In this document: piece by piece, positions 28,112-61,885 of the stretch
Layout: each line of letters opens with the position of its first letter
Numbering within the stretch: the stretch's first letter is position 1
Assembly (NCBI GenBank): GCA_026874595.1
Contig: CM049309.1
Coordinates: forward strand, 90,604,723-90,668,722
Origin: Sipunculus nudus
Taxonomy: Eukaryota; Annelida; Sipuncula; Golfingiida; Sipunculidae
DNA length: 64,000 bases
Reading direction: 5' to 3'
The notes under the pieces: generated by a model
Seen by the model: the letters and a program-made list of their open reading frames with translations, nothing else
Database searches by the model: none
What the model was told of the DNA's origin: nothing
Program-made: the position numbers and the translations under genes

Positions 28112-28168
28112 TTATGCGTCAGCGATGGTAACTTCTACCTCCACTCCTGGTTCAATGCTGATTGATGT
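28112..28168 (-). CDS. RPS20: RPS20 terminal exon
   Basis: Starts after CCACAGACAG and encodes [18 protein letters not shown] plus TAA. The two AGs four bases apart leave one in-frame choice that restores the conserved KQITSI sequence. Confidence 0.95.
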   Translation of the reverse strand, partial: TSISIEPGVEVEVTIADA

Positions 28169-31654: not shown

Positions 31655-32329
31655 CTATAATGAATACAGAGAATGTTATTCAATGGGAACTCAAAAAGAC
31701 AACCTGTACGCTTTTAGAATGAGGAATGTTATTCAGGTGAGAAACTGTATTGGTTAATACTCATCGGGAGTTATATGAAAATCCATTAGATATTTGAGAA
31801 GTCTATTGATAAATATGTATAATGAGTTCGATGAAAATCCATAGGCTTTTTGGTAAGTCAGTAACAGAGTCACCACAGTGCATACAAACTGCAGTGACCT
31901 CTGACCTTTTTAAATGTGCATGGATTTTGCTGGAAATCAAACTTTGGCAAGATACTTTAACATTTGTTGAGTTTTATCAAATTCCATAATATTCCTCATA
32001 AGTTATCTTGGTGACACCACAAAGTAGCATAATGACCTGTGACATTATTAGGCTGTTGCTATAGGTTTAGACACTGATCATACAGGCTTAAGTTCCTGCA
32101 CTTTCTATGAGCATGCACACTGACACTGCCAGACACATCCATAAAAGCTATTTCTCCTGCACCAACTATCAGACCTACCAGAACATTTGCTATTGTTCTG
32201 GCATTTAGTAATAAATATAAATTTTATCTAATTTTCATTGTAGCACTATATGTAGGACTTTCTACAACTTGGAGAATATGCATAGACCTGGAGATCTGCA
32301 AAATTCCCAAAGATTTTTCATCATTTGTG

Positions 32330-34200
32330 ACAAAAGCAGACTGCTTGATTTTAAATTGACCATGGCCTATATAAATAAATGTTCATTGTTCATAGGTTTG
32401 AGATGAAGTCCATATATGATTTTTAATAAAAATAAAATTAGGCCTTTTCCCAGTTTAACATGTTAAAATATTAAGGAAAACTGATTAATATAATGGGCTC
32501 TATTTATAAATTTCTATTTGCATGTAGGCCTACAACTTTCAAAGATTATCCAAAAATTGCACAGAATATTACTGTAGATATGGTATACCTATGTTAGTAT
32601 GTACTAACAGTTCTTCATATAACTGCACAAGTGCAAACTAGAAAAAGTCTGGACCTTAAGCTCTGGGGCAATGTGGTCCGGGGCTCTAGACACTTTGTAT
32701 TAAATATGCCCAGATTTCCTCTATAGTTGAATCAAGGCGAGATAATCTATTTGTAAGTACAGAAGTGTGCCGTATTTCCGAATACCAAATTTCCGAAAAT
32801 TCGTTTTACCTGAAAATTTATTCATATTTCCGAAATATATTTCAAGTATGTAAAAACCTAAAATGAGTATTGTAATTACGAATCACAAGGCCTGCAGTCA
32901 TGTGTTAAGTCCAGTGTTGACCCGAATTAATTAGTTCTGGGCCAATGTCACCAGGGCAGAGGTGTGAAAACCACTGCTAGCTCCTAAACGCTCGGCCCCC
33001 TGTACCCCTAGCAAGCGACTGAGCAGTTTATCCAAGAGCACTTGTGTGTTATCAACTACATCTCGTTTGTACTCGTGCAAGCAGAGTTCGTCGGCTTGTG
33101 ACAGGATGTCATGCCAAATAACTGAACAGTTTACTCCCATCAGCATTGGTGAGGTATAATCATTAATGCTTGTGCTTGAGCAGCTTTTCAATGTCCCAGT
33201 CTTCAATTACGTAGATCGATAGGAAACACCATGTTCCTTGGCAATGTTATTTGACCTTTCCCTCCAGTGAATTTGATAAAAAAAAGAACACGCACGTCTC
33301 CTTACAGCAGGTTAGACTGATCTTTGCCAATTATGCTTAGCAATAATCCAATATTTTTAAAACGTCCAGGTCGTCGATTACGAATATCAAAAAGAAACAT
33401 CGTGTTCCTCAGGTAAAATGGTGCCAAGTTAATCTTTAACTGTCGTACTAACTTGCCGCTAGACCACTGTCTGCATTTCCGAATGTTCGTTTTTACAAAC
33501 AAAAAGCTTGCCCCCTGACGCTTTTGGAAAAACAGCGCTCTACTGTGGTTATGGTGGGTTTTGAGAAAATCTATCAAAGCCCTGGTTAGTTATCGCGGCA
33601 ACAATAAAGGTTAACAGACGGACAGTATACCATAATATTCTGTAAATCCTAAAAAAGACCTATTTTAAAGAGTGAATTGACAGGCCTTCATCTATTAGTC
33701 AACTGTATGGCTACCAATCATTGTGTAGCCTTCTGTCAGCAATTTACATTCATTTTGTCACAGGTCACTCCATGGTTCACCTGGCATTTGAGCTGCTAAT
33801 AAAGTCCATAAAATTTAAACAAAGTGTCTAAAGCTCTGGACCCAGTCATTGCCCCAGAGCTAAAGGTCGAGAATACTGAAGAGCTGCAAGTACATGTAAA
33901 CATGAGCATTATGAGTAATACTCATACATTACAATTATAGGCCTACATGCAAAAAGAAACTTATTAATGAAGCCCATCATAGTTATCAATCTTCAATAAT
34001 TTCTTATTGACCTAGGAGTAGGCCAAATTATATTTTCGTTAAAATCATATTTGGACCATCTCAAGCCTAGTTATAAACAATGAACATATGTTTACATGTC
34101 TTTTGTTTAAGTTTTCTGCATTAATTCTGAATTTATATTTTAAACTTGCTTAGGTCCTGGTCAATTTAAAATCAAGCAGTTCGCTTCCATCACATTTTAA
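32330..34200. repeat. Large imperfect inverted repeat (foldback element)
   Basis: The left arm (32330-32720) and the complement of the right arm (34200-33810) share ordered blocks: CTGCTTGATTTTAAATTGAC, ATGTTCATTGTT, GATATGATTTTTAA-like, TTGCATGTAGGCCTA, CTCTGGGGCAATG and TAGACACTTTGT. Arms of about 390 bp enclose about 1.1 kb. Two minus-strand frames of 91 codons each (33206-32931 and 33577-33302) sit in the loop and look distantly alike around a 'GGAACA..GTTTC' block. I do not recognise them. Old, non-autonomous DNA element suspected. Confidence 0.65.
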
Positions 34201-34209
34201 GAAAATTCA

Positions 34210-37200
34210 TTGGTACGGCATGTGCACATATAATTCATTTTCCTGCAGAAACCACGTAACTTCATACATGAAATATGATTTATTTCAGTTATTAGCAGTA
34301 TTAGGAACATCTCTGCCAAAATCCAGCTCAGATAACTTCTTTCCTAGCTAATACTCAAAATACAGTCAGGAGCCAAAGTGAACAGTTACAGTTAATAAGT
34401 TAAAACTCCATGTTGCCCAGTAACGCCCTCTGGTATTTAAAGTGGAACCCAGTCTTTAATTGTATACTTTTCATTTGTGAATATTTTAGTGCAAACTGCA
34501 AATTTTAAATTACATTTGCAGGAAAATAACACCTATAACATTTTTTGTTTCTAGCTTTCATATTAAATTAAATAAATACCAGTTGCAATTTTCTAACTCA
34601 CTCTTGTAATATTACTTATAAATATTATTATTAAATATTATATTAAAGTGGCTATACACAACTGGTGATTTAAACTCATACTCACGTTTTACTTTTTAAA
34701 TACTTTATGAATAGTGCACATTTTTGCCGTGATATCACAATTTTACCTCTAAGAGCAATGTCTCTATTTTTTTTAAACCTTCTACTATATAGTACTTTGT
34801 TCTAGGGTTCTCAACTTCTCACAAAGCGTGGCGCACGGAGAGAGCACGGGTGCTTTGGCCAGGGGAGTGACGGAACCAACTTGTTATCACTGATAATAAA
34901 GCTATCTAGACCAAAAATCATAAAGGACTTCGATCACTTGTAACCAACCATGATTTAGTTGGATTCTGGCCGACTTATTCTCCGGATATAAGGATGAACA
35001 GCGGTGAGCCAGGAGCTTGCACGTGGGAATACGTCTGGTCGACTCTCCCTCAGCTTCCAAAAAGGACGTCTTCCGTTTCCGCCGTGAAGTCTGTTCCTGG
35101 CACCAGGCGGCGCCACCGAAAAAAACTCGCACCCTTCCGCCAGATGTCGTTTCTCAGAACTCAGAACTTTATTCCACTCGCGAATCATGAAACATACCGG
35201 CTTTCACACAGAGTACCGTGGAAACAATATGTAATTATTATTGTTACCCATAGTTAACTATAAACATAACTATAATCATGTTATAAATAAAAAATATATA
35301 AATAATGCATAACACCCTACACAATGCTATCATTTAAAATAAATAGGCCTTACCACCTTTGTGCCAGACAGTGCATAACAAAATGAATGGTGAACAATAC
35401 ATGTAAGTGTCCATAACACTTAAACATGAATGAATTTTATTCATGTCTTTTTTTTTTTAATAAATTTAGCAGAATAGCTTATCTGCCTATGATTTGGGAT
35501 ATACATGAGTTGCTTATATCTTATTATCTTAGGATCAATTGAGTTGTAACATTAAACCGAAAATAATAAATTAATCCCCTAACACATTGCACAAGTCACT
35601 TACTCTTCTATCACCATTAAAAAGTCGACCTCTGTGAACTGGTGATCATGATTCCTCAGTTTGCATTTATACAATGTTTTTTTTTTTTTATTTATAGTTG
35701 TGGTAGTCAAAATAAATATTTCTAAATTTCTAGTTCATTTTTAAACATTCTAGTGTTATTCATACAAATTTGACATTCAGCTAATATCCTTTCCATTAAG
35801 CTAGATCATTCTGATACAACATTTTAAGAAGTGGTTTTAAAACTCTTTAAATTGTGATTTTTTAAAACCAGTATATATGAGAACATCTGACATTCATTAA
35901 AGCTGCCCATTCACCTACTTTTTAAAAAATAGAATTTGTGTAATTTCTAGATTCCTATGTGTATATATTTATGATCTAGGGGTAATTCTTGTTATGAAAA
36001 GTTCTTATAACGCCTCCGTGAAGGATGTATGAACTTGTTTATCAACGTGTCTGTAAACACAGCAATGTTGACGAACGAAAAAAAAAAACAAAAAAAAACG
36101 TGTGACCTAAGGTGGTAGGTTGCATGTATGCGGAGGTAGAAAGGTCACTTGTTGCAAAACGCCATTTGCAAAGCTCTGGCTTATGTTACTTGCTGCCCTT
36201 GTTAAATTTGTTTTGATTATTTTGGCGGGCTCCCACATATTATTAAAAAGTTGATATAAACAAAACAAGCAGATTGTGTGCGGTGATATCCACATTTTCA
36301 GGCATATTTTATATGAGCTCCAACGGATTACCTTTAGTTTATAAAGGTCATATAGGTGATTGGGCCCCTTTATTAATATTTTCGACAAATATTATCCATT
36401 TGTCTATTTGATATAGTGTATCATAGAACCAATTATCGAACTAACAATCTCTCTTGAAAAGTAACTTATCCCAATATGAATTTATGCGGCCGGTATAAAG
36501 TTTGATCTCTATTTGCAATGGGTATCTCTCAAATCACCAAGCACCATGGCTTTGGTGTTGAAATAATAACATTCAAGACAATTCTGCAATTTTTTTATTG
36601 AATCCTTTTAACACAATCCTTTACATTAGAAGGGAGAAAGCATTTAAACAAATAGAACACCTCGCCTCATCTTCCGGTGTTCATGGTATATGGGCCCGAA
36701 AAAAAGGGTTTCTTTGCCCTCTTCCCTGCCTTCCTTTTGCTTTAAGAAAAATGCATTTGTCGGCTATTGCGATGAAAAACTCTTTTTGAGAAATGTGTTA
36801 TTTTTACACAAATTTAATGTTTTTTAAGCCAACCGAGCTAACATACATGCAGGTAATTGCTGATATTATTATAAAATCATTAATATTTCCATTAATGGGT
36901 ATATTTAAATGCATGGTTAAATTTGTTTTGAAAAAGGGTTTTGTATAAATGACAGTCCAGAAGGTAGGAGCTAACATTAATATTTAATAACAAGTAGTTG
37001 CTGATATCAAATTCAGTTTGAGAAACAGCGTGATAAAATTTAGATTTAAAAATACAAAAACTCTTCAATCCCATTATAAGGAGGTTTAGTTTCATACATT
37101 GGTTATAATATTCAATTATTAAATTAAAACATTTCAATGTATATTATATTCCAGATGCTATTTAAATATAACCGTTAAAGTTTTTTTTACGAAATTATTT

Positions 37201-38100
37201 GATTTTAAAATGTTTTGTTTTATACGTAAAATCAGAAGTGCTATTAACAGGCACGCAGTTGCTGATATTTAAATCATTTATATTGTCATATAAAGCTTTA
37301 TTAAGAAACCGAATGATGTTCACAGGAGCTAAATATAGTTGCTGATATTAATATAATTGCCTTTGTCATCAAAGCTCTTCTTATAGAAATGGAATTTAAG
37401 TTTCATTTTGTTTTAAGTTTTAAGTCACAGTCCCATGCAGGAGCTGGTGTATACAGGGTTGCAGATATTTAAATCACTTTGAGAATAAAGTGTGATATTT
37501 TTTTCCTATACAAAAGTCCGTCAACCAATAATATATAGTTTTATACTTTATATAGACTATATAGTTGAAAGAAAAATCTGCATGAATTATTAAATCTCCA
37601 TCAGTGTGTATACCAGATTCCAGATGAATATACAACTTCATCAGATAAAATATTCAACCATTATTTTCCCCGTCGAAAGGATAACCTTAGTTACTGCTAT
37701 AAAAAGTGCCAGGGACTTTTTTTGGTTTTATCATTGACAACTTTATACACAAAGCGCTTAATAATGATGATAGTGTAAAAACTATCATTGTCAAATGCCC
37801 TGTATGTGAGTAAATTCATATTGTATATCTCAGTTTCTTTAATTTATCATTAGTATCATAAACATTTTAACTCGCTGTAGAGAATGGAGTGTTTACCTGG
37901 TGTAAATGCTGTCAAATCCTAGCTGCATGTGCCTGCAGAGGAGAAATCCACTTTTAATTCTAATAAATAACTAATTAATTACCTATTAACATACCATATA
38001 CGTATTAGCCAGTCACAAATGGGACATGTTATAATGTGATATGTTACTTAGAGAAATCATTGCATTGGGGACATGTCCCATATTGACTCACGAAAACATA
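34210..38100. other. Intergenic sequence between RPS20 and TM9SF4
   Basis: Mostly AT-rich and featureless. A CpG-richer island at about 34985-35190 is a candidate for the missing RPS20 promoter and first exon, but no ATG followed by a donor could be fixed there. At about 36840-37480 a loose repeat (AGGAGCT.. then GTTGCTGATATTTAAATCA) recurs four or five times with irregular spacing. Confidence 0.4.
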
Positions 38101-38101
38101 A

Positions 38102-38102
<1 letters not shown>

Positions 38103-38145
<43 letters not shown>

Positions 38146-38146
38146 T
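38103..38146. repeat. (CA)n(TA)n microsatellite
   Basis: CA run passing directly into a TA run. Confidence 0.95.
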
Positions 38147-38279
38147 ATGTGTGCGTTTGATTGATTCCTGAAAGTAAGACATATTTTTTTCAATGTCACG
38201 GTTAAAGAAAAACTGGTTATAAAAACTGTATATAAACTGTATATACCAGGGGGTAGGCCTAATTATTGTTACCAAGAAT

Positions 38280-38760
38280 CAGGCTGACAGACTGAAAATG
38301 TTTTTCGCTTTGTCGAGCACCTACAGGTTGCTGTGGTCAAGACCCCAGCTCCTTAAGCATAGTTCTCAAAGCCAATAGACGTGATGCCACCAAGCCAAGC
38401 AGAGAGCTGCGAGAGACCGCCAACGTTTTACCCGCACCGGTGACTTAACAGGAAAGCCACAGCACCCACAGCCACAAAGGCAAAATTTAAGCAGCATACA
38501 TTCCCTCCACCGATCCCAGCAGCGAAGACCCAGCCATGCCAATCGAGAGCCGAACTCGATCTGTGAAACGACAGAGCTTTGAGACGAGAGCCATTTTATA
38601 CTTGCAGTTTCCTCCGTTTAGACGATTTTAGCCAGTTTTTTCTTCATAAGCATCAGGCCATGCATCAAATTTATATGCATGTCTATGTGTGTTTCGTAAG
38701 TGGTGGCAGGGGCTATACGGACCTACTTTAGACTTGGTCCAGTGTTTGTAAATAAACGAT
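38280..38760. other. CpG-richer block upstream of TM9SF4
   Basis: Less AT-rich than its surroundings. It contains a minus-strand TATAAAA at about 38594 and a short plus-strand frame beginning MPIESRTRSVKRQ that I cannot identify. Possibly regulatory, not assignable. Confidence 0.25.
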
Positions 38761-38907
38761 TTTAAATGAACACAGATTTCACGAATAACACCTATATAGT
38801 ATTCAGACTTGAATAAATATGTTCTGTAATTATAAAATCATGAATAAAATCAAATGTAGCTGTTTTATTAATGTTTCGCAATTGGCAGGTTTGAGATTAT
38901 TCCATGG

Positions 38908-38956
38908 AATCGGAAGTGACACAACACGGCCGGGCTTCCACGTTTGGACAGATAAC
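38908..38956 (+). promoter_or_regulatory. Putative TM9SF4 5'UTR/promoter with ETS-like site
   Basis: CGGAAGTG at 38911-38918 matches the ETS-factor consensus common in housekeeping promoters. It lies 39 bp before the proposed start codon in a locally CpG-richer segment (ACACGGCCGGGCTTCCACG). The transcription start was not fixed. Confidence 0.4.
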
Positions 38957-38968
38957 ATGGCTACCAGG
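38957..38968 (+). CDS. TM9SF4: TM9SF4 exon 1, coding part (MATR)
   Basis: ATGGCTACCAGG directly before GTAGGT. Joined to the next exon it gives MATRM, matching the vertebrate start MATAM. A tiny coding exon, so the call rests on that match, the phase-0 join and the promoter-like context. Confidence 0.65.
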
Positions 38969-41900
38969 GTAGGTTCTGTCGTTGGAAACATATCGCCAAT
39001 CTCCTTAAAATATGTCAAAATGTTACCCTTCACTGTTTAAAAACCTCTATTAATTGCTCTTTCGTTATTTAGAAATGGTTTCACTATGACATAAAGAGAA
39101 ATTGCAAGTACTTGCATATTTATTTAAGTGCGATTTTGCATGACTTCGTGTGTCCAAATGCATTGAAAGTGACGCGTTTGACAGGACGGCAGGGTTTGGT
39201 CTGAATGGGCGGGTCCCCTTAGTAAGAGCGTAAATGTCATTCACTGTTATTATATGTGTTGCATGAGTCTGTTTACAAATCTTAGGGGTATCATAATCAT
39301 TCTGGAGATATAGTACCACCGAAAGAGTAACCGTCAAACTAAATAATTAAACTGTCCAAATTGATATTATTATATAAATGCTATACTTGCTATAAATGCC
39401 TTAACTTGCTTTTGATTTTGTATATGAGAAATAATCCAGTATATGACAAAACAGGTTACAGTGTTTACAAATTTTTCATTGCTGGAGAACTGATTATGAA
39501 CAAGCCAGGCAAACTGCCGACATCAGTCAGTTGAAGGTGATGTGCGACCAATCATTGTAACATCTTTGTGACGCCACTGTAGTTTAACAAACACCACATG
39601 CAGCCATGGACATGGAAAGTGTACCATGGTGGAATGTACTGTCCAGCAGTGCCAGAAAGAGGCAACCCACTGTCCATCAGCATACATACATAGTGTCACA
39701 AAGTAAATAATTTTAACATGATGTATTACTACTTTACATAAAATCTGTTATTATCGCGAAAAAACATGAGGACAAGGGTTTTTGGGAAAGACTAGAAGTA
39801 ATAGTCCTAGATGCCTTATTATATCAATATTTCTTAATAACAATATTTTTGTAATAATGTTAATATTAACCGAGTAATTATCTTGCCATGACTTGTCAAT
39901 ATTGCAAGTAATCATATATTTATATTTTAAAGTCAAGGATTATTTTCAAAATAAAAAAACAATGCAAGCCTCAGTACCACTTCTTCAAGGTACTTTGTAT
40001 TTCTTATAACTTCCCCCTCCTCCCGTGCCCCCTGTGTGGGTCTCTGTGGGAATATGTATGAATATATTTTGATACAGGGATCATTATGCTTTGAAATTTT
40101 CACCTTTTCCAAGAAATTTTTGCCTTTCCATTAATGATTAATCCTACCATCTTATCAAACTTTAAGTCACACTTTGCTCACTCTATAAGAAATCATAGAC
40201 CATTTTATGGGAAAATATAGGAAATTGGGTAGTTGGTGAAACACCGTCTGTAAAATATTTAGTTTTTGTGTCATGTTGGTTACTATTTTCAGCTTCTAAC
40301 GTGTAAAATATCTAAGTGACCACATATCCAACAGATTGGTACAAAATGTAAAATGCCTTTCTGTGCACGTTTGCTTGTCTGAGACAGACGGAAAGGTGTT
40401 ATTACGACCCCTGTTGATATACACTTACAAATATCCGTTTTGATAATGTCAGTATATATGTATATTTCCCATATTATTTAATTATGTGTTTGTGTGTATG
40501 TAATTAAAAAATATTCCAGTTATTATATTTATAGCATTTGCATCTATGATATTTATTGTATCCCCAGACAAGGTGGGGGGGGGGGGTACTATGGTTTAAG
40601 CACAGTACCACCTCCGCCAAAGAAAAAGCTTGTGAGGGAGATAACTGAAAAATATTCAACGGATCTTTATCAAACTTTACATGTGTATAGATATGGGGCA
40701 GAGAAGTCAGAGGACGAAGCCTCATGAAGGGTCATGAACTTTAAAAGGATTGTGACCTTGACCTTATATAGGTCCATTTTTGGTGTAAATCCCAAAATAT
40801 CTTAAAAATCTCAAGAAAGTTTGCATGGATTGGTCCAAAAATCAAGTAGACTGAAGATCTTGATAGCCTTGTCATATACTGGAAACTGTTTATGCCACTT
40901 ATCATCCTTTTCTTGTTTTCACACCTTTTAATACTCTATCATTGCCACTTGACAGTACTGTGAGGCTGTGAGCATTATAAGTCAAAAACTAATGGTAAGA
41001 TTTCTTTCATATTTTGCACATGCATAGATATGGGTCATGGGGTGAGGTCTATTTAAATTTGAGTCATGACCCTTTCTATGAGAATGACCTTGACCTTTAA
41101 TATTTCCATATTTGGTTAAAATCACACAAATAACAACCAGATTTAAGTCAGTTAGTGTAAAGTGCATTTGTTTCACCCAGTTCCAACTCTTCTTATTCAT
41201 ACAGGGTTCCTTTTTTTTTGACAGCATTTCCTTTTCAAGGCCGTCTTCTGCCTGTCCCCAAGAGGACCAGCCTAGAGCCAGTGTTGTTACATTTTGTTTA
41301 AACTGACAGCTCACTGGCTGGTACCCCTCTTGCATAAGCCCATGTGCTGGTGGGTTGTAAGCAAAATGTATCAACATGTGCTGGCAGGTTGTAAGAAAAA
41401 TGTAACAACATTAGCTCTAGGGCGGTCCTCGTAGGGCTAGTATCCGTTTTGCTGGCAGAGGGAACATGGCCATGATAAAATAATCTTAATGTTATAATAG
41501 GTCGATGAAGTGGCACCATAATATGACCTGTTATTTAATAAGAGTAACCTCAAGGAAGCCTGCAGTCTCCGTAGCTCTGTCCTAAGACATATATATGTTC
41601 TCATTGCATGAAGTTCAACCATACAGTCCACCTGAATAAATGAATTAATCATAACTTTGCTTATTCAGTGAAAAACAAACATGGGGTGGGGAAGTCTTAC
41701 TAAGTATCCTTTACTACCACCCCTAATTATTTCTAAAAAAAAATCACCCCAGTCATTGAATGCCAGTGGAGCATCTAATAGTATGTAGTAGGCTAACAAA
41801 TTATTATTTTCAATGATCATTCATTGTTTTCAATTTATTAATTTTTTTTCCTCTCAAAAGACATGAAAAATCTTTCCCCATAGATCAGAAGTGGTGCCCC

Positions 41901-44900
41901 CCAAACCAGTGCAGCCAGGACTACTGTGTTGTAATATTATTAATATATCTGGGTTTAGGATTTAGTAATATTTTTGGAATTCTGACCTTGGAATGAATTT
42001 AATAAATTTCCAGGTCCTTCATGCAAATAAAACTTGATGCTGCCTTCCTCTAGAATAAGCAATGTATTTTGGTAACTCATGGTGGTTAAAGCAAATATTC
42101 TTTAAATTTTGAATTTTATTTTCTACTGTGATATGAAAATTTTGCTTACTAATATCGCGGTTGTAAAAGAAAAAAAATTATATCCAGAAGTCGCTGTTTT
42201 TACAGTTATCCTTGCTTTTACATCAAGTACATATTACTCAACCAAATAAGTTTTGTCTTGATTTGTTTAATACCTTGTTTGTTCCTCAACACTATTTGTA
42301 TTATAAATAGCATGTCTGTCCACAGAATATTTGTTTGGTTTCACCAATGAGAGTGATGCATTGAATCTTGTACATATTGATCATAACTTGATTTACGATC
42401 TGTTGGTATATCTTTATTTGAGGCAGCTTTAAGATTGAATTAATCATGTGTTGTACACAGTCACAAAAAGGATCTGTGAATACTGAGATGATGGATGCAT
42501 GATCAAGTATTGAGCGTGGGATGTTGTATATTCAGATGGCGGTACATCTCTGTTAATGATCAAGTGTTAAGTGTAGGATGTTGTATATTCAGATGGCGGT
42601 ACATCCTCTGTTCGTGATCAAGTGTTAAGTGTAGGATGTTGTATATTCAGATGGCGGTACATCCTCTGTTCATGATCAAGTGTTGAGTGTAGGATGTTGT
42701 ATATTCAGATAGCGGTACATCCTCTGTTCATGATCAAGTGTTAAGTGCAGGATGTTGAATATTCAGATGGCGGTACATCTCTGTTCATGATCAAGTGTTG
42801 AGTGTAGGATGTTGTATATTCAGATGGCGGTACATCCTCTGTTCATGATCAAGTGTTGAGTGTAGGATGTTGTATATTCAGATGGCGGTACATCCTCTGT
42901 TCATGATCAAGAGTTAAGTGTAGGATGTTGTATATTCAGATGGCGGTACATCCTCTGTTCATGCTCAAGTGTTAAGTGTAGGATGTATATTCAGATGGCG
43001 GTACATCTATGGTCATGATCAAGTGTTAAGTGTAGGATGTTGTATATTCAGATAGCGGTACATCTCTGTTCATGATCAAGTGTTAAGTGTAGGATGTTGT
43101 ATATTCAGATAGCGGTACATCTCTGTTCATGATCAAGTGTTAAGTGTAGGATGTTGTATATTCAGATGGCGGTACATCCTCTGTTCATGATCAAGTGTTA
43201 AGTGTAGGATGTTGTATATTCTGATGGCGGTACATCCTCTGTTCATGATCAAGTGTTAAGTGTAGGATGTTGTATATTCAGATGGCGGTATATCCTCTGT
43301 TCATGATCAAGTGTTAAGTGTAGGATGTTGTAAATTCAGATGGCGGTACATCCTCTGGTCATGACCAAGTGTTAAGTGTAGGATGTTGTATATTCAGATG
43401 GCGGTACATATCTGTTCATGATCAAGTGTTAAGTGTAGGATGTTTTATTTTCTGATGGTGGTACATCCTCTGTTCATGATCAAGTGTTAAGTGTAGGATG
43501 TTGTATATTCAGATAGCGGTACATCTCTGTTCATGATCAAGTGTTAAGTGTAGGATGTTGTATATTCAGATGGCGGTACATCCTCTGTTCATGATCAAGT
43601 GTTAAGTGTAGGATGTTGTATATTCTGATGGCGGTACATCCTCTGTTCATGATCAAGTGTTAAGTGTAGGATGTTGTATATTCAGATGGCGGTATATCCT
43701 CTGTTCATGATCAAGTGTTAAGTTTAGGATGTTGTAAATTCAGATGGCGGTACATCCTCTGGTCATGACCAAGTGTTAAGTGTAGGATGTTGTATATTCA
43801 GATGGCGGTACATATCTGTTCATGATCAAGTGTTAAGTGTAGGATGTTTTATTTTCTGATGGTGGTACATCCTCTGTTCATGATCAAGTGTTAAGTGTAG
43901 GATGTTGTATATTCTGATGGCTGTACATCTCTGTTCATGATCAAGTGTTAAGTGTTGGATGTTGTATATTCTGATGGCGGTTCATCTCTGTTCATGATCA
44001 AGTGTTAAGTGTAGGATGTTGTATATTCAGATGGCGGTACATCTCTGTTCATGATCAAGTGTTAAGTATAGGATGTTGTATATTCAGATGGCGGTACATC
44101 CTCTGTTCATGATCAAGTGTTAAGTGTAGGATGTTGTATATTCTGATGGTGGTACATCTCTGTTCATTATCAAGTGTTAAGTGCAGGATGTTTTATTTTC
44201 AGATGGCGGTACATCCTCTGTTCAGCCTTGTAGTGGTGATATTGATGTGTGGAGCTGATGCATTTTATGTGCCAGGTGTTGCACCCATTGATTTCAAAAA
44301 GGGACAGAATGTAGATATTAAGGTGAGTTTTAATTTTAACTTTGTATTTATTAAGTCTGAAAAGCTATAGAAAACAATTAAAATACATTGTTCAGATAAC
44401 CACACATTCAATATCTTTATATGGATGAACTTTAAGCTCTGGACCCAGGGGTCAAAATGTTGGAAAAAAGTTAAATTCCCTTGGGGGAATTCAAGTATTG
44501 GAACTAAGTTCCCTTCGAAGAAAATGCACTCCCTCAGGGTTTTTAATTTTTTCCAATGTAGGAATTTAACATAGCCATTGTCATTGGTGTTTAGGTTACC
44601 CACCAAAGAAAATGTTTCCCTACCTTATGAAATGTGGTGCAACTGCTGATCTAGAATTTTATAAATAAATACAGTTCTTATTGTGCTACTAGTTTAAATT
44701 TGTAGTTTAGTGTTTTTACCCAGTGTCATAAGGTAAACTTACAATGAAAACAAAAAAAAAATGTGATATAATGTTTAAATATTACCATAAAATAACTTTT
44801 TTAATCATGTGGCATTATTAAAATTATTTTATCAGACATAAGGACAGATCTGGTAGATTTAGTGTTGTTATGAAGTTGGCATTTTCAATAAAATTCCTCA

Positions 44901-47900
44901 CTTGTTTTCTCTTTTGTAGTGGCATTTATACTCTAACTCTTATTTCTTTAAATTAAAAAAAAAAAACAGTTTTTTTAGAAAACCAGTTGATTACAGTGGC
45001 ACTGAGAAATTGCTTGCTCTTCTGCATTAAAAACTGCAAAAGCCCTTTTACAATCCAATCCGAATGATGTAAGAATAAAATGGCAAAACAGATTGAATGT
45101 GCTTAGGGGCCATTGTCAAGGTTACCAGAACCAGGGCACACTATGTGCCCGCCATGAGGGTTAGGAGATTTTGTGTACCCCACTTGAATCACATGAGCTT
45201 CTGGCGAATCTTTCTACAAGGCATTAATCAATTATTTCTGTCCAAGTTCTATTAATTTCTAGCTAATTTTTTTCTGTATCTTTAATAAAACAAGTATCCT
45301 GGTCGGCAGAACAGAGATAAGGTTGGTCAGAAACTGGAAGCAGAAGTAATTTTATTGGCACATCTTTCCATTGAAAATGAAGATAATTGAAATGATTTTC
45401 TCTGAGATATAATAAAAAAGGGAAAAGATGAAGTATTTGGTATAAGTGGGAAAGTGACCAGCACCACTGATTTTCCATCAGAGATCGGGAATTCTAAGGC
45501 ACATTTTTACATACCTTGTCGGGAACTGGGTCAGGCATTTAGAATTCCCGTCATCAAAATCAAGTCCCTGGGGAACTGGGCAGTTCATACATTTTGACCC
45601 CTGCAGTGGAGCTACAAATGTGTAAGTATGTGTGCATTTATCAGATGATATGAAAATACGTCATTTTGACCTAAATTCTCCAAGCTGTCTGCCAAGTCTG
45701 GTCTTACCTTTCTCCATGCAAAGGGTTCCCAGATAAGTGTATGCTATATTAAGCATTCTCATATATCTTTGTTTTATGTGAAAAGTCATGTATTTTCAGA
45801 AAGCTTTGCTTGTTTACAGGCTGTTAAGCTAACCAGTACAAAGACACAGCTGCCTTACGAGTATTATTCTTTACCTTTCTGCACCCCAGAATCCGGCATC
45901 GCATACAAACCAGAAAATCTGGGTAAGTCCAATATAACCTGCCTTACAAATAATAAATTTTTGAATGATCCCTTTGGAGACAGAAGGCATCGCATACAAA
46001 CCAGAAAATCTGGGTTAGTCCCATATAACCTGCCAGAGTGCCATACATATAGTAAAATTATAAGTTATCACTTGTGAGACACAGCTCTCTTTGAGGATTG
46101 GAAGATTGTATTATCAACTCTACATTCACTGCAGGCATCACAACACCCAGGTACCACAATATCTGTCGGCCTTAGAAAATGTCACTTTGGTTTTCTGGCA
46201 GGTTATTAAAGCCAGTGTATCATTCTTTTAGTACGCTTGGCTTTTTTTATAGTTCACTCCATTTTATATTGCTGAATGTCAGTTGTAGAAACATATTTTT
46301 TCAAGAAATAACTGTTATGACTAATCATAGTTTCAAGTAGTCTTTAAATATGATTGTCCCTAAAAAATGTTACACAATTAATCATGCTGATGTGGAATTG
46401 CCTTTTTAATATGTTTTTGGGATGTCAAATGTGGCAACTTAGTAGAGTGTTTTAAATGATAGTGAATTTTAAGTGTGTTAAAATGGCTATTTTATTCAAT
46501 GGAAGAACGTTTTGTTTAATTATATATTGTAGTCAGTTATATCAAACAGTGTTATATTACAATGGATTTCTTAGTAAATCTTCTTGTAAACTAAAAATTA
46601 GGCCACCGTGACCTGAATTCTGCAAGTTTTGTGCGTTTTTGTGTGTTTTAGCACTAAGAAAATCAGACTTGTGTTTGTGTTCTTGGCTTCAAAACAAAAC
46701 TTTGCACTCAGCTGGAAAAATTAAGCATTGTGCATCATCTGCACATATAACTAAACATTGTTGCCATGTAAAACATGAAGAAAATCAGCCCAGCCAATTA
46801 TTCAGAACTGTTCCTTACAATTGTTAAATTTCAACATTTTAGCCTGTTGATGTATGAAATTCATGCTTTAGATATCTCAGTAATTATTGCAATAATCTTT
46901 TTGAAATTTGGTAAGCTTATTGATTGAGCCCTTTCAGCTTGTATCAGACTGGTGGCACCACCGTGCAATTTTAATAATATTTTTAGCTCAGATGACTTGT
47001 AGTCATCTGAGCTATAGTTTTGGTTGATTGTCTGTTGTCTGTCTGTCCGTCAGTTTGTCCCTCCGTCTGTTAGACTGGCATGTTTTGAAACCGTTTGACC
47101 TATGAATCCAAAATTTGGCATACTGTTAGATGTCCCCAGGATCTACCAAACCAAAAACTGGGTCACTGAGACTTCTTTCCTTTTGAGAAATTAATGAAAA
47201 ACCTCAATTTTCCTTCAAAAACCTATTATCACACTTCAGGAATGCCTAATTTCAAAACCACTCATCTGTATTTCTTCATATTTACAATAAATATTCCCCT
47301 ATATAGTTTCTATGTACATGTCACAAAAAAGTCAGTATTAGTTCATTGTATCTGCCAAAACAGAGTTTGGATAAAATCACTCAGCAGTTGTTTTGACATA
47401 TCTGCCTAAAATTTTGCATGTTTATACATCTTGTATAGCTTTCTCAATTTTGTGGCAGGTGGCACCACCTACATTTATGTTTACCTTGCAGACATTCAGG
47501 TTTATATCTCAGGACTGGTTTGACTTATCCCCCTGAAATTTTGCATATATATAGATCTCACATAGCTCTTAATCATACACAAAATTGGTGGGGCCACCTG
47601 CCACAATTTTTGCACAGTGGCCTTCTGTTTGTCTGCTGTGGGATAAAATCACTCATATGCAAGTAGTGGTTTAACTTATCTGCCTAAAATTTTGCATATG
47701 TATACAACTTGGACAGCTTTCTGGATTTTGTGGTAGGTGGCACAACCAACATACACAATTTGGCTGCAGGCATCCATGCTAATATGCAACACACCTCACT
47801 CTATTTCCCCTTGCCACTCAATCCATGCCTAACTTCACCCGTCCCACTCTGATTTTGGCGGATACACATAGACATGCAACTACCCGTATTCTAGTTTATA

Positions 47901-50900: not shown

Positions 50901-53900
50901 GCACATATATATCTGTCACCACGGAAAATGTTGAAAATCCATTCGAAAAGTTCTTCAAACTACTTGCTTTTGCAAACACAATTGAAAATACTAAAATGGC
51001 AGCAATCTAAGTTGATCTAGAATTTCTGTGTCAGAGATCAACTGAGCATTATGACCCATGGTCACTTGTTTTCAGGTTACTGGTAAAAAGTCTTTCTTTA
51101 AAAAACACAGAAATTAGAATTAGCATGTTAGCATTGTTAGACTCAAGGTTTGTGACTTATTGCTGAATACGCTTATGATACTGTGTTCCTGCTGCATTAT
51201 GTATGTGTTATATCTCAGTGTGTAGTCAGTCCTTGTACATCTGATAAAATGCCTCTGTGCATCTACAGCAGGTGCGATGCAGCCATCAACTGATTCTTCA
51301 CATTCCTGTATTGCCTGCAGTGTTCATACTGATTTAGATCACAGATATCTCTGCCTGTGACTGTTGTAGTTATCTAAAAAAATATTATCAAACAATATAT
51401 TGTACATATACCACAGCTAATTGGTCATCACATATATATAGACTCTGCCACAGTACAAGGTGAAGACATTAAAAGTTCACCAGGAGTTTTTGTTTTACGC
51501 ATTGCACACATTGTGGCACAAATTTATTAGTGGAGAAAGGTTTCTGTGACACTGGTGGTGGGTTTATGGTTGATGTAGTTCATAGATGTATCTATGGATA
51601 CAAGAGAATCGATTCATACATCAGTAGCTCTGAAATATGTCTGTGAATCTGAACATTTTTGATACATGGATACATTTCAGAGCTATTGGAAAAAGTATAC
51701 AGACCTGATGAAATAGCAAAACTAGCAGAACAAGTTTTTAGGTAATTCTAAATCAGTTTCATATATAAAGTATTGTGATTCCTGATTGTGAGACTTTGTG
51801 AGGCAAGCAGAGGATGTTACAACGTGCTATGAACATCTGACATGGTCACCTGGCTACATAAGCACAGCGTACATTTTCTTCATATGGCACATTTTCATAG
51901 TGCTTCATCACCCATGACAAACTCTAAATGTCATTATGTCTGCCCTCTCATGAGGGGAGACATATAGTGTTTGGTCTGTGGTCAGCATCAGTTGTTGGTG
52001 TAATCATCCATTGTTGTCTTTGTCATTACTCATGAATGCAATAACTTTTGAATGACCCAACATTTTTTCATTAAATTTTGAATTTAAACTGGTTCTACCA
52101 ATATCTCAGACTAGTTCGAAAGCAAGTGACCTTGCCTATCATTAGGGTCAAACAGGCCAGATAGGCATGTGAGGCTAAGTTTATCACATCAACAACCTGC
52201 GGTCGGCTACTCAGTTACAGTCTGTTGTGATATTTTGTTTGAACAGGTTAATTACCCCGGCCTGGGCATTCTGATTAAAGTGAACGAGATCAACACCGGC
52301 CGGCGGGGCGGTGTTTTCACACCTACTGCCTATGCTTGGGTGCACTGTTGGCACTCTGTATCAACATTCATCTGGCTACTTTTGTTTTGAATCGGGCGAT
52401 CTTTAATACCATTTTTATTCTGGATTTTTTTGTCATTGTTAAGATTTTGGATGAATGTTCAAATTTCGGATCTCCGTTTTCTTTTGTTATTTCAGATGGA
52501 TAAATGGTCTTTGGATATTCAGTTTCTACTGTATTTTAGATTTTTAAGTTCAAGGTCAACTTCAGCTGAGCACAGTGACCCATGGGTCCCTTGTTTTACT
52601 ATAAAATGACAAGAATCATGTCATGTTCTCAGCTGTGATTCCATCTAGTATCCCAAAAAGTGGTGTGCTTATTGAACACAAATGGATGCCCTGTAGTCTT
52701 CAGCCTGTCTGTCTGTTCATCTGTCTGTCTTTCTGTCTATCAGTCCATCCAAACAAATTTGTATCCATATGATAACTCCAGGTTGGATTGACATGTAGAT
52801 TTCAAACATGACTTATACATGCCCACCACTAAAGAAAGAACCTACAAGACCTTTATTCTGAAAAAAATTCATAAAAAATATCCTTATTGACAAATTTAGC
52901 TTAGTGTCGAGACCTCTGGGTCCCTAGTTGGAATTTGTGCTTTGTAAGTGTGTTAGAATTGCACTGTTAGTATTGACTATTAAAGAATTGGGACTATATA
53001 AATACTATCTATTATTTTATTATTTGGTCTATGCAAAAAATGACCTCAGAAAGTTATAAGATATCCAAGGAGTTCTTAAGAAAGATGGAACTCATGGTGT
53101 AGATTGGCTTATTGAAATTGTGCTAAGCTTGAGCATCCATTAGCAAGGCATGTTTTGTAACTGTTTCTGTTCCAATTTTGACAGCCAAGTGGATAAGAGG
53201 GAAAACTCCTACCAGACCTGAAACCTTTGCTCTCTAACTAGCTGTGTATTTAACTGTTAATGTCATACTTTGTTTGTTAAGAAAATGGTCATACAAACCC
53301 TGTGTGTTTACTGAAAAAACTGCTCTTTTTCTTTCCAGGTGAGGTCCTAAGAGGGGACAGAATTGTCAATACACCCTTTGTGGTAAGCCCAAATTCATCC
53401 CAACAGTCCTGGTATTTAACTCGTTGAAGAATCATGGTCGTGTCTCTTTAGTACTTTGATAGTTCTTTATTGTCCCAAGTAGACTTTACTTGAAATTTAG
53501 TTTCTTAAGGTTTTTGGAGGTTATGAGTGCTCTCATGAAGGCCAGTGCTGTCACTATTTTGTATTATTATATTAAAATGTATTATGCTTTTCAGGAAATA
53601 CCTTTTATTTTTTCAAGTGTAGATACTTTTTCTTTGACCTGAAACAGTCGGAAAGATTGTGAAAGATTGAATCTTCACACATATAAAAGACTTGGTGATA
53701 AGTACTTAGTGATATGTTTATTAAGTGTTTTAGAACAGCTCATCTTGTTTTGTAAGTTTTTGTCATGTTTTAATCAGTGTGTGAGGAACTGAGTGAAATA
53801 TGTTGAGGATGGGCAATTTTATGTCTTCACAGCATTACAGGAATCATTGATGAAGTGGTGTATCTAAATATCACACATTTAGACAGATGTTGTTCAGATG

Positions 53901-56900
53901 AGCATCATTTAGCATGGATTTCTATGTATATGATACACAAATATTATCATGTGAAGTTTTCATATAAGGCTTAGTTTGTGACTTACCCATGCTTGACAGA
54001 GATTTAAACAAACCAGAACAAATATTTGACCATGAAGCAGGTTACTTTCAAATTTCTAAAATCAGTGTGCTAAATATGTAATGGTGACTTTATCTGTTAC
54101 TGTTTACAGGTCCACATGGCTGAAGGCAAGGGCTGTCAAGTCCTGTGTAACTCTCAGGAGAAACCTTCAACATTTTCAAAAGAAGATTCAGCAAATGTAG
54201 CCAGCAAAATCCGTGAGGCCTACAGTGTCCATTTGTAAGTAAATTGAAAATGGTAGATTATCAACTAACCCTGTGTGTCAGAGGGATCTTGAGGCACTGT
54301 TGGAGCCTGGATATATAAAATGATGAGCTCCAGGAACTCCCAAAAACAAATACATGTTGGTTTGATAATAGGGTTACTTGGAACTGCCAAGATGTATTCT
54401 ACTAGTCTCATCTTCTGATGGGATTTTCATATTATTGACATGAAATGCAAATTATGAACTGGCCCAGTTCGAGGCCTACCAGTTCTGACAAGTTGCAATA
54501 CAAGTGTCACTTCCTAATCTGCATTACTATTGTATTAAGAGTCAATATGCCAGTCTTTAATGTAACATTTTTTTCCTTTTAATCTGTATGGGTAAGCATG
54601 TCATCATGAAAAACTCGGGGTTTGATAGCGGTTTATACAGGTAAAGCTACATTACATTAAAATTTGCTCCACTTAAGAGATGTCATGAATTCTATTGCCT
54701 GAGTGGTTGATTTCCGGGTACTAGCTGACCTTTGAAGCTGTGTAGTGTAAGTTAAAGCCCCGGGTCACTTGTGCAATGACCTTTACAGCCCACAGGTCTA
54801 CTAAGCCTTCCGTGATGATATCCACAGTTGTAAACTCCCATATTTATTGAGAACCATTAGCTTGAGATTTCAAGCGTTTTGAATAACAATGTTCTAACAT
54901 TACACGTGAGCTGTGAATTCTTTAATGAGATGGCCACATATGCACCTAAATTCCACAGGAACAGACATTGTTTGGTGTCATGACAGATCTGGTTTAACAA
55001 AGCTTAGGTTGCTAGACATCCAAGCCATTTGAACATAATCACTGATAACAATGAAAATTGGACTTTCCAAATATAATCACAGAATAAAAATCATTAGTCT
55101 CAGTAGATATAATATCAGTAAATTTAATGTTGTGTGTATTTTTCTTTTAACTGACTGGTCAATAAAGCGTTCATTATCCCCTTGTTGACTGATCAGTTTC
55201 TGTCCTTTCAGTAACACTGCATGTGCCGCGCCTTGATGTTCAGTTATAACAATTAATTCCAGGGTTACTTTATTCAATTTGAGAGCCCATTTCAATATTT
55301 TCTTGAGAGAAATAGAAATACATTCAAACTAAATTATTCTTTCCATCTTTCAGTGGTCTTTTGTCAGTTCAAAATATGCACAATGTGGCGGATTTGGACG
55401 CATCGAGCGTGCACAAACTAATGAATCCAGTCTACTTTTGGCGATCTTAAAGCATTTAAATAGCTGCTCTAGTGTGATATTATTTTGTTTCAGACTGTTA
55501 ATTATATTCATACAGTCATTTAACTTGATATTAGTATTTCTAATCTTCCTTAAAGTACTAGGAAACAGCAATAATGACATCGTTTCACAGCACAAAGTGT
55601 TATCACATGTAACTGACACTGGGACTCCAATCCACTCTTCAAATCTTACCTTACAATTGAACCCTGACTTTAAATGAAATGATACTGTTGTTTTTTCCTT
55701 ATATAGAAGGATTTTATTTAAACTGTTTTTATGTTTAAATAGTTTATAAACCACGATAGTAATATGGGGACATTGGCTGTACTGCAGGAAGCCATGATAC
55801 TTGAATTCCATAAGTACCAGGTAGTTTGGATGCCTTTTGATTTTGGGTGCAACTTATGCCCCCCAAAAAATTAATTATTTGTCTCTCACACACCGCCAGC
55901 ATCACTTTAAACCCCCGCGTCAAATGTTTTATTGCCCAAGTGATGGGGTGTTCAGGTAATATTGTTGATCCCTACTAAAAGAAAAGTTTGTGACTTTGCG
56001 TCAGTCTTTTTCCCTCCTAATGATACTTGGAACATTCTTACCCATAAAAATACTTTAGAACAGAAGTTTCTACAAAACTTTTGACCAGTTTGACCTTAAC
56101 ATCATTCAGTTATGATTATTATATCTCATATTCCATCTTTGTGAATATTTTCTTAAGCGGCCGTATGCGGTGCCAGTGCCCAAGGCTTATGATGTGTTAA
56201 TATGCTTGGTTTCCGTAGAAAAAAAAGTCAATCTTTAAATAAACAGAATTGGTATTCAAGTGTATAATTTTGTCAAATAATGTGAATATAATGCCTGCTT
56301 TCACTGTCATGCTTTGTGAATGTTTGATGAGAATAAACATGGCTACCATTGCGGCCCATCCGTAGAGATTATGTTTTGATGAACTTTCAATATACTTATT
56401 TTGCAATTAAAATTTAAATAAAAAATCAACAAAGATAATATTATATTGAAATAAATTTCTATTGTTTTTCCTTATTAAATGACCTTGGGTCTTGTTTTAA
56501 CTCAGAGTGACTATCTTGCATTTCAATGAAAAGTGCCCCATGTCATGACTGTTGGCATGGCCCGTCTGTTCAGGATTCACCGTGAGATTTTGACACTGGT
56601 AGTCCAATATAATCTGGTTTGCATGTTAATATTGCAAGTTAAAGAAATAACAATGTCCCATATTTTGAAAATTCTGTCAAACTTTTGACTAATTGGACAT
56701 ATAGATTGTTTATTTTCTTACATTTTAACCATTGGATGTCATTTCTGTGCCAGTGCATGAGAAATAACAATATTTTATGCTATTTTCATTGGGAAAAAAA
56801 TAAAAATAAAAAGCTACCTGCCGACATCATTTAGAAAAAGATGCCTGAGAAATATTTTTTTTGGCCTTATATTATGAATTTCCTGAAAAAAACTTTTACG

Positions 56901-59900
56901 GCTATTTCTCAAGTGAACCTTAATGTCAGGGTATGACTTGTAATATGGATGCGACTTCTGCAAGGAATTTCTGGTAACTCGGAACAATTATACCTGGAGT
57001 CTATATACCTCATCCAAATACTGGTTCCAGTTATACTTTCTTCTGACTTAACCCAGGTCATAGACAGGCATCAGATCTAGCATGATTTGGGGATATGACA
57101 TTTGATGTCAAAGAAATGGTACATTTTCTGATGGCTCTGACAATCCATTTGAAAACTTATCAAGATATATTTGCCAGATATAGTGCAGTTGGACCAGTTT
57201 ACTCTTTTGGTGGGTTCCTTGAGACAGTGCTTTATTTTTAATTATAAATATCCAACCTCTGCTGCATTCATGTCAGATGTAGTATCAATTGTGCTAACTT
57301 CCTCCAAGCTTACATTTTGGTCATAACTGCGGTATGTGCATGTATGTGAATAAAGTAAACTTAGCTGTATTTATCACTCATTTTTTACATCTAATACTTA
57401 ATGTTATTGAGACAGACTAATAAACCACAAATGTTCATCCAGTTTAGTATACATAGTTATATTATTACAAAGTATGATGGTGTCCTGTTCTAGGCTGACT
57501 GACAATTTGCCCTGTGCCACCAAGTTCACCATGCCGGAGACAAATGAGGTCCAGTATGAGCATGGATACAAGCTGGGCTATGTCAAAGATGATAAGGTGA
57601 GACACATTTAAAAAACAGACCACTGCTGTAACAATGCTAGCATTTATAGCTTGTTCATTCATTTACAAACACTTCTAAATGTGTTGTTTTTTTATAAGGA
57701 TCAATTTTGGCAAATGACAGCACCTCAGTTTTCATCAGTAAAAGAGATATACCTGTAATGTAGAGGTTATAACCACTGTAATTTTCACTAAGACTATTTC
57801 TAAGAAACTGGTTCCATAATTGAGGAGTGTTTGTTATTGATAGGTGCATGTAAACAAAGGTTTTCCTGTAGTTTCTTGGATTTACAAATCCCCCTGCCCT
57901 TGTAAAATTTTTGTGAACCTCATAAATTTTGCAGTATTGCATATTTTGTCCCTAAATTTTAAACACAAGTTTTTTCAACCAAGTTCTAAGACAATTTTGA
58001 AATCTGGTGACCTTGGCCTTGTTCTTCAAGTTAAATCTGCCAAATTATTCTTCTATCTCTTGGATTTCTTGTAAATGTGATAATTATTGCATATTATTCT
58101 CACATATTCATCACATCAGCTATTTCCATCCAGATTTTTTGAAAGAACTAAAAACTTAGTGACCTTGACCCTGATCTTCTAGGTCAAATCTGGGATCATT
58201 AAGACCCCTGTAACATTTGAAATACTGCAGATTCAGCTCATCCAAGTTATTTCTTTTGATTCAGTATTCAGAAGAATTTGTGTACATTAAATGGGGTCAA
58301 AGGTCTTTGTGATTGCCATATTTTGCATTATTGTGGTGTCCTTTGTTTGTATTTATAAAACATGGGTTTGTATTTTAAGATTGCACAAAAGTTATTTTGA
58401 GAATTATGGTGCATCTATTGTACTATAAGATTCTGAAGACTTTTCATCTATGCTTTAATGTAATCTTATTCATTTGTTTCAGACTTATATCAACAACCAT
58501 CTGAAGTTGTATTTAAAATACCACACAGAAACAGCGTAAGTAACAAGGTCCAAATCTCCAGCTTGTCATTTGTTCCCTGAGATTACTGTCTTGTTTTCCT
58601 TGAACTCTTTGACACTCATGTGGTTAGACCCTTTTTGTAAGACTTTATACATAAGTTTAGCTCTTAGGCCAAAAGCTAGTCAGGCTTTTCTCCCAATCAG
58701 CTGTAAACAACAGGTATATATGGAAGAGTAGTTCAGCTTTCACTTTTGATGTTTTCTTTCAGCTTTGCTTGGTTAAACTGTGACATTTTTAGTGAACCTG
58801 TGAGCTTATGTGATGGTGTGGTGGCATTAGTTTAATAATGAAAGGACTTAAAGATACTTTTGTAAACAAAGCTAGTAGATTTATTGTATGAACAGACTGA
58901 GCTCATTGGGTACATAAGCATAGGTGTTCAGGTAACATACATAATTGGTGTCCATATCTTGTTTATGTGCAAGATATATCCATGAATAAAATGTAGCTGT
59001 ATTCTGATTTTGCTTTCAATAGACATCTGTCATTTTTCTAACATTTTGATAAAAAAAATCTGATGAAAATGCAGCTTAAAAAAGCATTGTAGCCAAAGTC
59101 ATTCAGTATGTATAAGCAGATTTGGCAGCATGCCAAAGTTTTGTCTGTACCTGTTAATAGCTTGGCAAACTGCCAACTATTTCAGATTTGGCAACAGGCC
59201 AAGTTTCAGTCTGCCAACTGTATCAGAATTAACAACAGGTCTTGAATTCACTCAGTGCAGCCAGGTAAAGGTCAAGAGTTCACTCAGTGCAGTGGCTTCA
59301 GCTTGCAATTTATTCCGGATCACTCAAGGCAACTGCCATTCTCACCTGAGATTAGTCAGCCCAGTGCACCTGACTCAAGAGAAGTTTGATGTATTGGCCT
59401 GACTTTTTGACTTGTTCATGCATCTTTGATGCATTTGTCCTACACAAGAATGGTGTCGCCACCTACAATGATTTTTGCACAGTGAACTTTCTTGCTTATT
59501 TCTCAGGAAGGATTTGATAAATCAGCTTGAAATGGTGCATATCTATAGTAATCAGATAGTTTTGTTGAATACAAGACTTTAGACACCACCTACAATAAAT
59601 TTTGCACAGTGTATGACCGTATGCCCCAACTTATTTCTCAGGAGTGATTTGACATTTCAGCCAGATATTATGCATGTACATACCTCTTGGATACTTTTTT
59701 GTATATAAGTCCTGAGGCGCCACCTAAAATTGTTATTGGGTTTCAACTTTCATCCACATAGCTCATGAGTGATTTGAAATAACTGCCTGGAATTTTGCAT
59801 GTCCATACATCTTTGTTGGCTTTCTCGTACACAAGATTGGTTTCGCCACCAGCAATCACCTTTTTATGTTGTGTACATTCTGAGTAAAATTTATATAAAA

Positions 59901-61613: not shown

Positions 61614-61885
61614 TGATTAATTCATTTCCTAGTCTACTAGATTAGTCCCATTTGTTATATTAGAAGAGACTGACTTAGGTAGCTATGGCTATTAAAGGAC
61701 ATGACCAGCGTAAATAAAACTGCAATTTGATCATATTATACCGTAGATGAATTGTTTTTGTAACTGTTGGCTCTGTGTGTAGTCGTTACTAACGGTCTAA
61801 AGTAATTAAAACCGCGTCTAATAAGAGCACTGAGATGCTTGGTTTCACCCTGCCCGTGTTCGGCAATGATCGGTTCCGTGCCTCA

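Follow-up and report, generated by a model that had tools for sequence, protein, structure and literature searches.

What becomes of a gene when the 3′ splice site in front of its start codon is repeated 30 times, which of the copies serves as acceptor, and do the others do anything? These questions are raised by a 64,000-nucleotide stretch of the Sipunculus nudus genome (here called the window), in which the TM9SF4 exon that carries the presumed start codon is preceded by a long array of copies of its own intron/exon boundary. Our analysis favors, with good confidence, the reading that this array is a ‘mirage’, a mostly neutral minisatellite that arose by tandem duplication across the 3′ splice site and of which the last acceptor is the one used.

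The exon in question (44203..44322, + strand) is 120 nt long, encodes 40 amino acids ending in ...DIK, and leads into the donor AAG/GTGAGT. The next TM9SF4 exon was read at 45820..45922, followed by exons at 53339..53382, 54110..54234 and 57494..57596 (all +), with further exons outside the window. Joined with the next two exons, the start-codon exon matches the EMP70/TM9SF family in Pfam (PF02990, E 1.4e-8); the 40-residue piece alone had no Pfam match, and a 71-residue TM9SF4 piece, compared with PDB sequences at E up to 1, had none there. The genome has further EMP70 matches on C9, C5 and C2. We take the gene to be TM9SF4 rather than another TM9SF from its resemblance to other animals' sequences, and the paralogues are named on the same footing. 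Six-frame comparison with these paralogues was swamped by repeats and was replaced by exon reading around the family matches. Reading on through the window and the following 30 kb gave thirteen further exons, the last closing with KID and a stop; some internal exons were not located, and as far as read the gene therefore looks intact.

TRF reported one minisatellite array on the + strand at 42498..44224, with a consensus of 58 bp, 30.0 copies, 93% matches and a score of 2985. Cut in register, it consists of 30 head-to-tail units, one of 54 bp and the rest of 57 or 58 bp. A full unit comprises 36 bp of intron end, closing in most units with AG, and then the first 22 nt of the start-codon exon, the boundary having been placed by acceptor score. 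The last unit, unit 30 (44165..44224, +, coordinates that include two extra bases shared in the unit listing), carries the T-tract TTTTATTTT followed by CAG/ATG, and it is contiguous with the real exon, continuing into ATGGCGGTACATCCTCTGTTCAGCC...; the real exon is the final member of the series. The array thus agrees, to the nucleotide in its limits, with the first-pass annotation of this DNA, which had described a unit amplified about 30-fold, a composition of some 36 bp of intron plus 22 nt of exon copied from the TM9SF4 boundary, and the real exon as the last unit. Two other large minisatellites, at 26322-27795 (47 bp × 32) and, in a TM9SF4 intron, at 60757-61617 (54 bp × 16), do not lie at a visible boundary.

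The repeat is confined to this place. With up to 3 mismatches allowed, a 34-mer of the unit had 27 matches in the 1.43-Gb genome and a 25-mer had 29, all inside the array, and reversed-pattern controls of both had 0. A query with the whole array likewise returned this locus alone, which is present once in the assembly; this search skips very common words, and the pattern searches are therefore the stronger evidence for a single locus. Dispersed satellite DNA, for which many loci would be expected, was rejected on finding one. Genome-wide dispersal, which the first-pass annotation had named beforehand as an observation that would speak against it, was not seen.

To compare the copies as splice sites, a 23-column acceptor matrix was built on 34 curated sites from TM9SF4 and three related genes of the TM9SF family, unit 30 excluded, and a donor matrix on 12 curated donors, all from TM9SF4 and including that of the start-codon exon; one acceptor string and one donor string were dropped before scoring. 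Scored leave-one-out, the real acceptors had a median of 9.2 (range 2.3 to 14.9, n = 34), and 910 AGs in two intronic stretches of TM9SF4 had a median of −2.4 and a 95th percentile of 6.5. The first-pass annotation had proposed that all units be scored with a splice-site model: the last unit reaches 8.7, which equals or exceeds 17 of the 34 real sites (leave-one-out) and places it among the top 2% of the 910 intronic AGs, and the 29 decoys range from −2.1 to 4.4. Their commonest score, 4.2, equals or exceeds those of 6 of the 34 real acceptors; the TM9SF4 decoys are weak, not dead. Among donors, the best GT within the array scores 4.3 and none comes near the 11.5 of the exon's own donor, so that a decoy would most likely define only a longer exon with all later units. 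Ten of the 12 curated donors score at least 7.3, and since the other two score just 2.5 and 4.0, the array could conceivably contain a weak donor.

Two further arrays of this kind were found in the same genome, both on the minus strand, both at acceptors of internal coding exons and both with the real exon as last unit. The first, in a TM9SF3-like gene (L053 4696-5351, G000:C2; exon reading and TRF), has a 78-bp unit in 8.4 copies, made of an intron end and some 48 nt of exon, and an open frame runs through its last decoy and the exon. The other, in an SNF transporter gene (L058, G000:C16:60091700-60092900), first appeared as three successive matches, 117 bp apart, that start at an identical position of the profile; its sequence resolves into 3.3 copies of a 117-bp unit (39 codons) made of an intron end plus 80-90 nt of exon, with the frame open across complete units. 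Seven decoys of the TM9SF3-like array score 8.7-10.4 versus 8.8 for the real acceptor, which was in the matrix training set, and both SNF decoys score 10.6 versus 10.6, the SNF acceptors lying outside that set. Since the decoys of the sister arrays are comparable in strength to the real site, the choice of exon need not be decided by acceptor strength alone, and a single strong acceptor is no general rule for boundary arrays in this genome. What the three arrays have in common is a real acceptor beside the best donor: in the stretches scanned, this was the exon's own donor in the TM9SF3-like gene (6.3, modest) and in the SNF gene (11.8), other GTs scoring at most 5.4 and 6.0, respectively, and no GT within any of the three arrays comes up to the donor of the respective exon. 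Elsewhere in the TM9SF3-like locus L053 and in the C9 paralogue L047, arrays of 23 bp × 2, 21 bp × 20 and 47 bp × 4 end 3, 4 and 21 bp before acceptors, and these are without clear exon copies.

The placement of the TM9SF4 array at an acceptor presupposes an intron before the start-codon exon, and the strength of the acceptor suggests one; the array would then sit in the first intron and be spliced out. An intron 1/exon 2 boundary, as the first-pass annotation had named it, would need an exon 1, and none could be singled out among several candidate sites, with 12 donor-like GTs scoring at least 8.5 between 30001 and 42497. CpG-rich stretches occur at about 33, 35, 36 and 38-39 kb (400-base windows, 30001-46200 only), and the one at 38201..39400 (observed/expected 0.68-0.97) is one of several candidate places for the promoter or a non-coding exon 1. 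Further upstream, one of ten reading frames tested against Pfam proved to be a piece of ribosomal protein S10p/S20e (28540-28860, minus strand; PF00338, E 6.6e-23), the other nine having no Pfam match, and we presume from their resemblance that frames at 31508-31654 and 28112-28297 are other exons of that gene. Its strand suggests that it is probably arranged head-to-head with TM9SF4, with the promoter region between the two.

It might be argued instead that there is no intron here, and that the amplified element is a promoter or start region, with a YY1- or TISU-type motif round ATGGCGG and transcription from the last unit. Of the 23 occurrences of ATGGCGG on the window's + strand, 22 do fall inside the array. 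The fuller TISU/YY1 motifs, which we assume to be AAGATGGCGGC, AANATGGCGGC and CAAGATGGCGGC, are nevertheless without a match on that strand. TISU is described, in the portions of the literature available, as an element that surrounds the start codon and fits the YY1 consensus, which would suit this reading, yet the same descriptions give AAG before AUG and stress a purine at −3, whereas the base at −3 here is C. Nor does CpG content rise at the exon (44.2 kb), the CpG-rich stretches lying 5-11 kb upstream; the AG scores like a real acceptor, as do 2% of the 910 intronic AGs; and both sister arrays lie at acceptors of internal coding exons. A start-region origin is thus very improbable, and membership of the TISU/YY1 class was rejected as a candidate for the unit on the missing AAGATGGCGGC-type motif (+ strand) and the C at −3.

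If the array is instead a row of duplicated acceptors, variation among the units should tell how the decoys have fared. The 29 upstream units read CAG in 22 cases and CTG in 7, and ATG in 25 and ATA in 4; both CAG and ATG are intact in 18, and no unit lacks both. Most upstream units therefore carry a decoy 3′ splice site and a start codon, as the first-pass annotation had stated. It had also remarked that the T-tract is coupled to CAG in the last unit alone, which the unit listing corroborates: TTTTATTTT occurs in units 17, 24 and 30, paired with CTG, CTG and CAG, respectively.

From this pairing the annotation had gone on to suggest selection or drift toward a single usable acceptor; under selection, exactly one acceptor would be preserved and all others weakened. 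Indeed, the last unit is the sole one to combine the T-tract with CAG and has by far the strongest score. Unit 17 (43417..43474, +), in which the acceptor is lost, is however identical to unit 24 (43821..43878, +), because units 11-17 (43071..43474, +) and units 18-24 (43475..43878, +) are one duplicated seven-unit block. Unit by unit the two copies show 0, 0, 0, 0, 1, 0 and 0 differences, that is, 1 differing position in 404 bp, and the duplication is recent. The two T-tract/CTG units are therefore one lineage. When units 18-24 are set aside, the single remaining T-tract unit is CTG in a set in which 5 of 22 upstream units are CTG, a chance of about 0.23. On the same basis, loss of the AG is somewhat commoner in the five units adjoining the exon (3 of 5 versus 2 of 17), a difference in the direction expected under selection, with a one-sided p of about 0.055 in a post hoc comparison.

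The distinctness of the last unit can moreover come about in another way. Units 1 and 30 each differ at 4 positions from their nearest relative, and 27 of the 28 inner units differ at 0-3, the exception being unit 9, with a 3-bp deletion and 6 differences; divergence at the two ends would be anticipated if array edges escape homogenization, and such escape would also produce the uniqueness of unit 30. Together with the full-strength decoys retained in both sister arrays, this makes selection for one usable acceptor unlikely. The first-pass interpretation thus stands with respect to the boundary unit, the exon as last member, the single locus and the best acceptor in last place, and is not supported with respect to selection.

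Substitutions in the decoys affect 17 of 568 cells in exon columns (0.030) and 31 of 1,099 cells in intron columns (0.028), the first 38 columns being counted as intron plus two exon bases and the last 20 as exon. The two parts thus diverge at about the same rate, and the start codons and coding bases of the decoys show no sign of constraint; the decoys are taken as largely neutral on an absent signal in a small sample.

What would follow if a decoy were used can be read from the units themselves. Unit 28 (44050..44107, +), the nearest decoy with CAG/ATG, would produce an exon of 235 nt that begins with a short ORF of 11 residues, and unit 27 a 292-nt exon whose first ORF is MAVHLCS. For all 22 CAG decoys the first ORF would stop early, and the number of upstream ATGs before the true start would range from 5 (unit 28) to 82 (unit 1). 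In each of these cases an ATG in unit 29 opens a frame that runs on into TM9SF4 with no intervening stop, and it would add 24 amino acids if reached. It could be supposed from these predictions that the upstream units are tissue-specific alternative acceptors whose short uORFs in the leader let copy number tune TM9SF4 output. CAG is kept in 22 of 29 units and ATG in 25 of 29, any of the 22 would place its 5 to 82 upstream ATGs and short first ORF in the leader, and the exons made by units 27 and 28 would be just 292 and 235 nt long. All decoys score no more than 4.4, however, and their exon and intron parts diverge at about the same rate without a sign of constraint; such regulation seems to us quite improbable, and a function of the decoys is probably absent. 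We likewise give very little credence to a wider version, in which this genome repeatedly makes minisatellites of its 3′ splice sites and the TM9SF4 array acts as a rheostat, its decoys sometimes being used and its copy number setting uORFs and protein.

How common such arrays are bears on whether the present one needs a special cause. Arrays of period at least 10 that overlap a 49-kb stretch from 44001 make up 11.7 kb, 1.7 kb of it being the TM9SF4 array, which lies mostly upstream of that stretch; with tandem repeats so plentiful, it is hardly unexpected that one was seeded at a boundary. Of the 36 acceptors in four TM9SF genes, 4 lay no more than 10 bp from a tandem array (TRF score at least 50, period at least 10), one of the four being the TM9SF4 array, as against 0 of 30 located donors, two donor strings that were not found having been dropped. 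Random array placement, a weak null that lets arrays fall within exons, gave means of 4.1 for acceptors and 3.8 for donors, so that acceptors in these four genes are not enriched for arrays (4 versus 4.1) and donors look depleted of them, none being reached in 2.5% of random draws. At 0 bp the counts were 2 acceptors and 0 donors, and at 30 bp 5 and 0.

Other gene families were covered less evenly. For myosin, the first 39 of 75 rows were scanned over stretches reaching from 260 bases ahead of the match start to 60 bases past it (TRF score at least 36, period at least 8); none of the arrays detected covered an acceptor, and two lay upstream in the intron (L082, L095). At a TRF score of 30, applied to 19 stretches, weak two-copy repeats appeared near boundaries, such as the 10-bp repeats of L071 at the end of the match and just before the acceptor (scores 33), and we take these for chance. 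In L071, which belongs to a myosin gene on G000:C8, the 10-bp AGGTTAGTCA occurs as two adjacent copies where the exon match ends (about 497-516, gene direction), a possible doubled donor at a weak TRF score of 33. Successive matches at G000:C2:44848559-44852248 to approximately the same myosin-head segment (109-153) are as expected of mutually exclusive alternative exons. Reading the SNF (120), kinesin (128) and ABC_membrane (79) rows by eye, which detects only units with long exon parts and in which many SNF and ABC rows come from bacterial-looking contigs, we recognized one boundary array, that in SNF. Many small contigs (C61, C62, C66, C72, C75, C89 and C102 among them) carry long uninterrupted ABC and SNF transporter genes, partly with identical scores, and the assembly therefore seems to hold bacterial contigs, from a symbiont or a contaminant.

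The origin of the TM9SF4 mirage can be sketched as follows. A single segment of about 58 bp spanning the 3′ splice site would have been duplicated in tandem as the seed, and unequal exchange or slippage would have brought it to 30 units, the recent seven-unit duplication included. The flanks point to such a tandem duplication, the two ends of the duplicated TM9SF4 segment sharing CA only; both ends of the TM9SF3-like array share GTGTA, its first unit being without a short stretch present in the others, and both ends of the SNF array share a TCATGATGATGAT-like stretch. Slippage or microhomology repair would require just such short direct repeats flanking an acceptor. By exon definition, the last acceptor would be chosen because no other has a strong donor one exon length (120 nt) away, helped additionally by its better pyrimidine tract, and the decoys would be carried along as largely neutral passengers. 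The gene probably still works, since a proper exon is formed by the last copy alone. Any use of a decoy would lengthen the 5′ leader with short uORFs, and re-initiation could add up to 24 amino acids at the N terminus.

Repeats across splice boundaries have been reported before, although among open-licence papers we recognized none on molluscan or other acceptor arrays beyond those cited here, and found none on YY1 arrays in Peg3. In human CBS, the 844ins68 allele duplicates the intron 7/exon 8 junction, and normal mRNA is made from the more distal site (PMC2630376); the passage concerned calls the sites ‘donor’, and the title of the work that it cites, Romano 2002, says 3′ splice site. This resembles the present locus in its duplicated boundary and in the normal message from the more distal site in CBS, and differs in having one extra copy rather than 29 and in being a human polymorphism in coding sequence. 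The 31-bp VNTR of the same gene, c.1444_1467+7(16_21), is similar in crossing, by its notation, an exon/intron boundary and in having 16-21 copies with unit variants (PMC2630376), yet by the same notation it lies at the end of an exon, on the donor side. In human segmental duplications, internal tandem repeats are ascribed, in the excerpted text, to minisatellite expansion, some at an exon-intron boundary as here, and are linked to new splice sites and introns (PMC2812944); unlike the present array, they concern recent primate paralogues and were deduced from gene-transcript comparison.

The closest parallel is provided by the mirages of amphioxus, described, in the sections available, for the globins BflGb6 and BflGb9, Adh3, TnC and PGBD5, where RT-PCR suggested undisturbed splicing and concerted evolution was seen inside the cluster, the boundary excluded (PMC3087553, PMC3902484). 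Like these, the TM9SF4 array is a minisatellite-like tandem duplication across an intron/exon boundary in which the splice signal is kept in many, not all, units (here CAG in 22 of 29), the authentic exon is a member of the series (here unit 30), and a homogenized interior is flanked by divergent edge units (here units 1 and 30). It differs from them in its 30 units, as against 6 and 3 in two BflGb6 haplotypes (PMC3087553, PMC3902484), in an exon that carries the presumed start codon, in the animal, and in that splicing here is read from the sequence alone. Boundary-spanning minisatellites have been proposed as a route to new introns (PMC3087553), and they are natural experiments on how the spliceosome chooses among near-identical 3′ splice sites, with a contrast here within one genome between the weak decoys of TM9SF4 and the near-equal decoys of the TM9SF3-like and SNF transporter genes. 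Under the name of mirages they are described, in the portions of these papers at hand, from amphioxus; the finding of three in one other genome, within a limited sample, suggests that such arrays could be commoner than that and easily overlooked. The TM9SF4 array is thus a mirage of the amphioxus type, unusual in its copy number, its presumed start codon and its two or more companions in the same genome.
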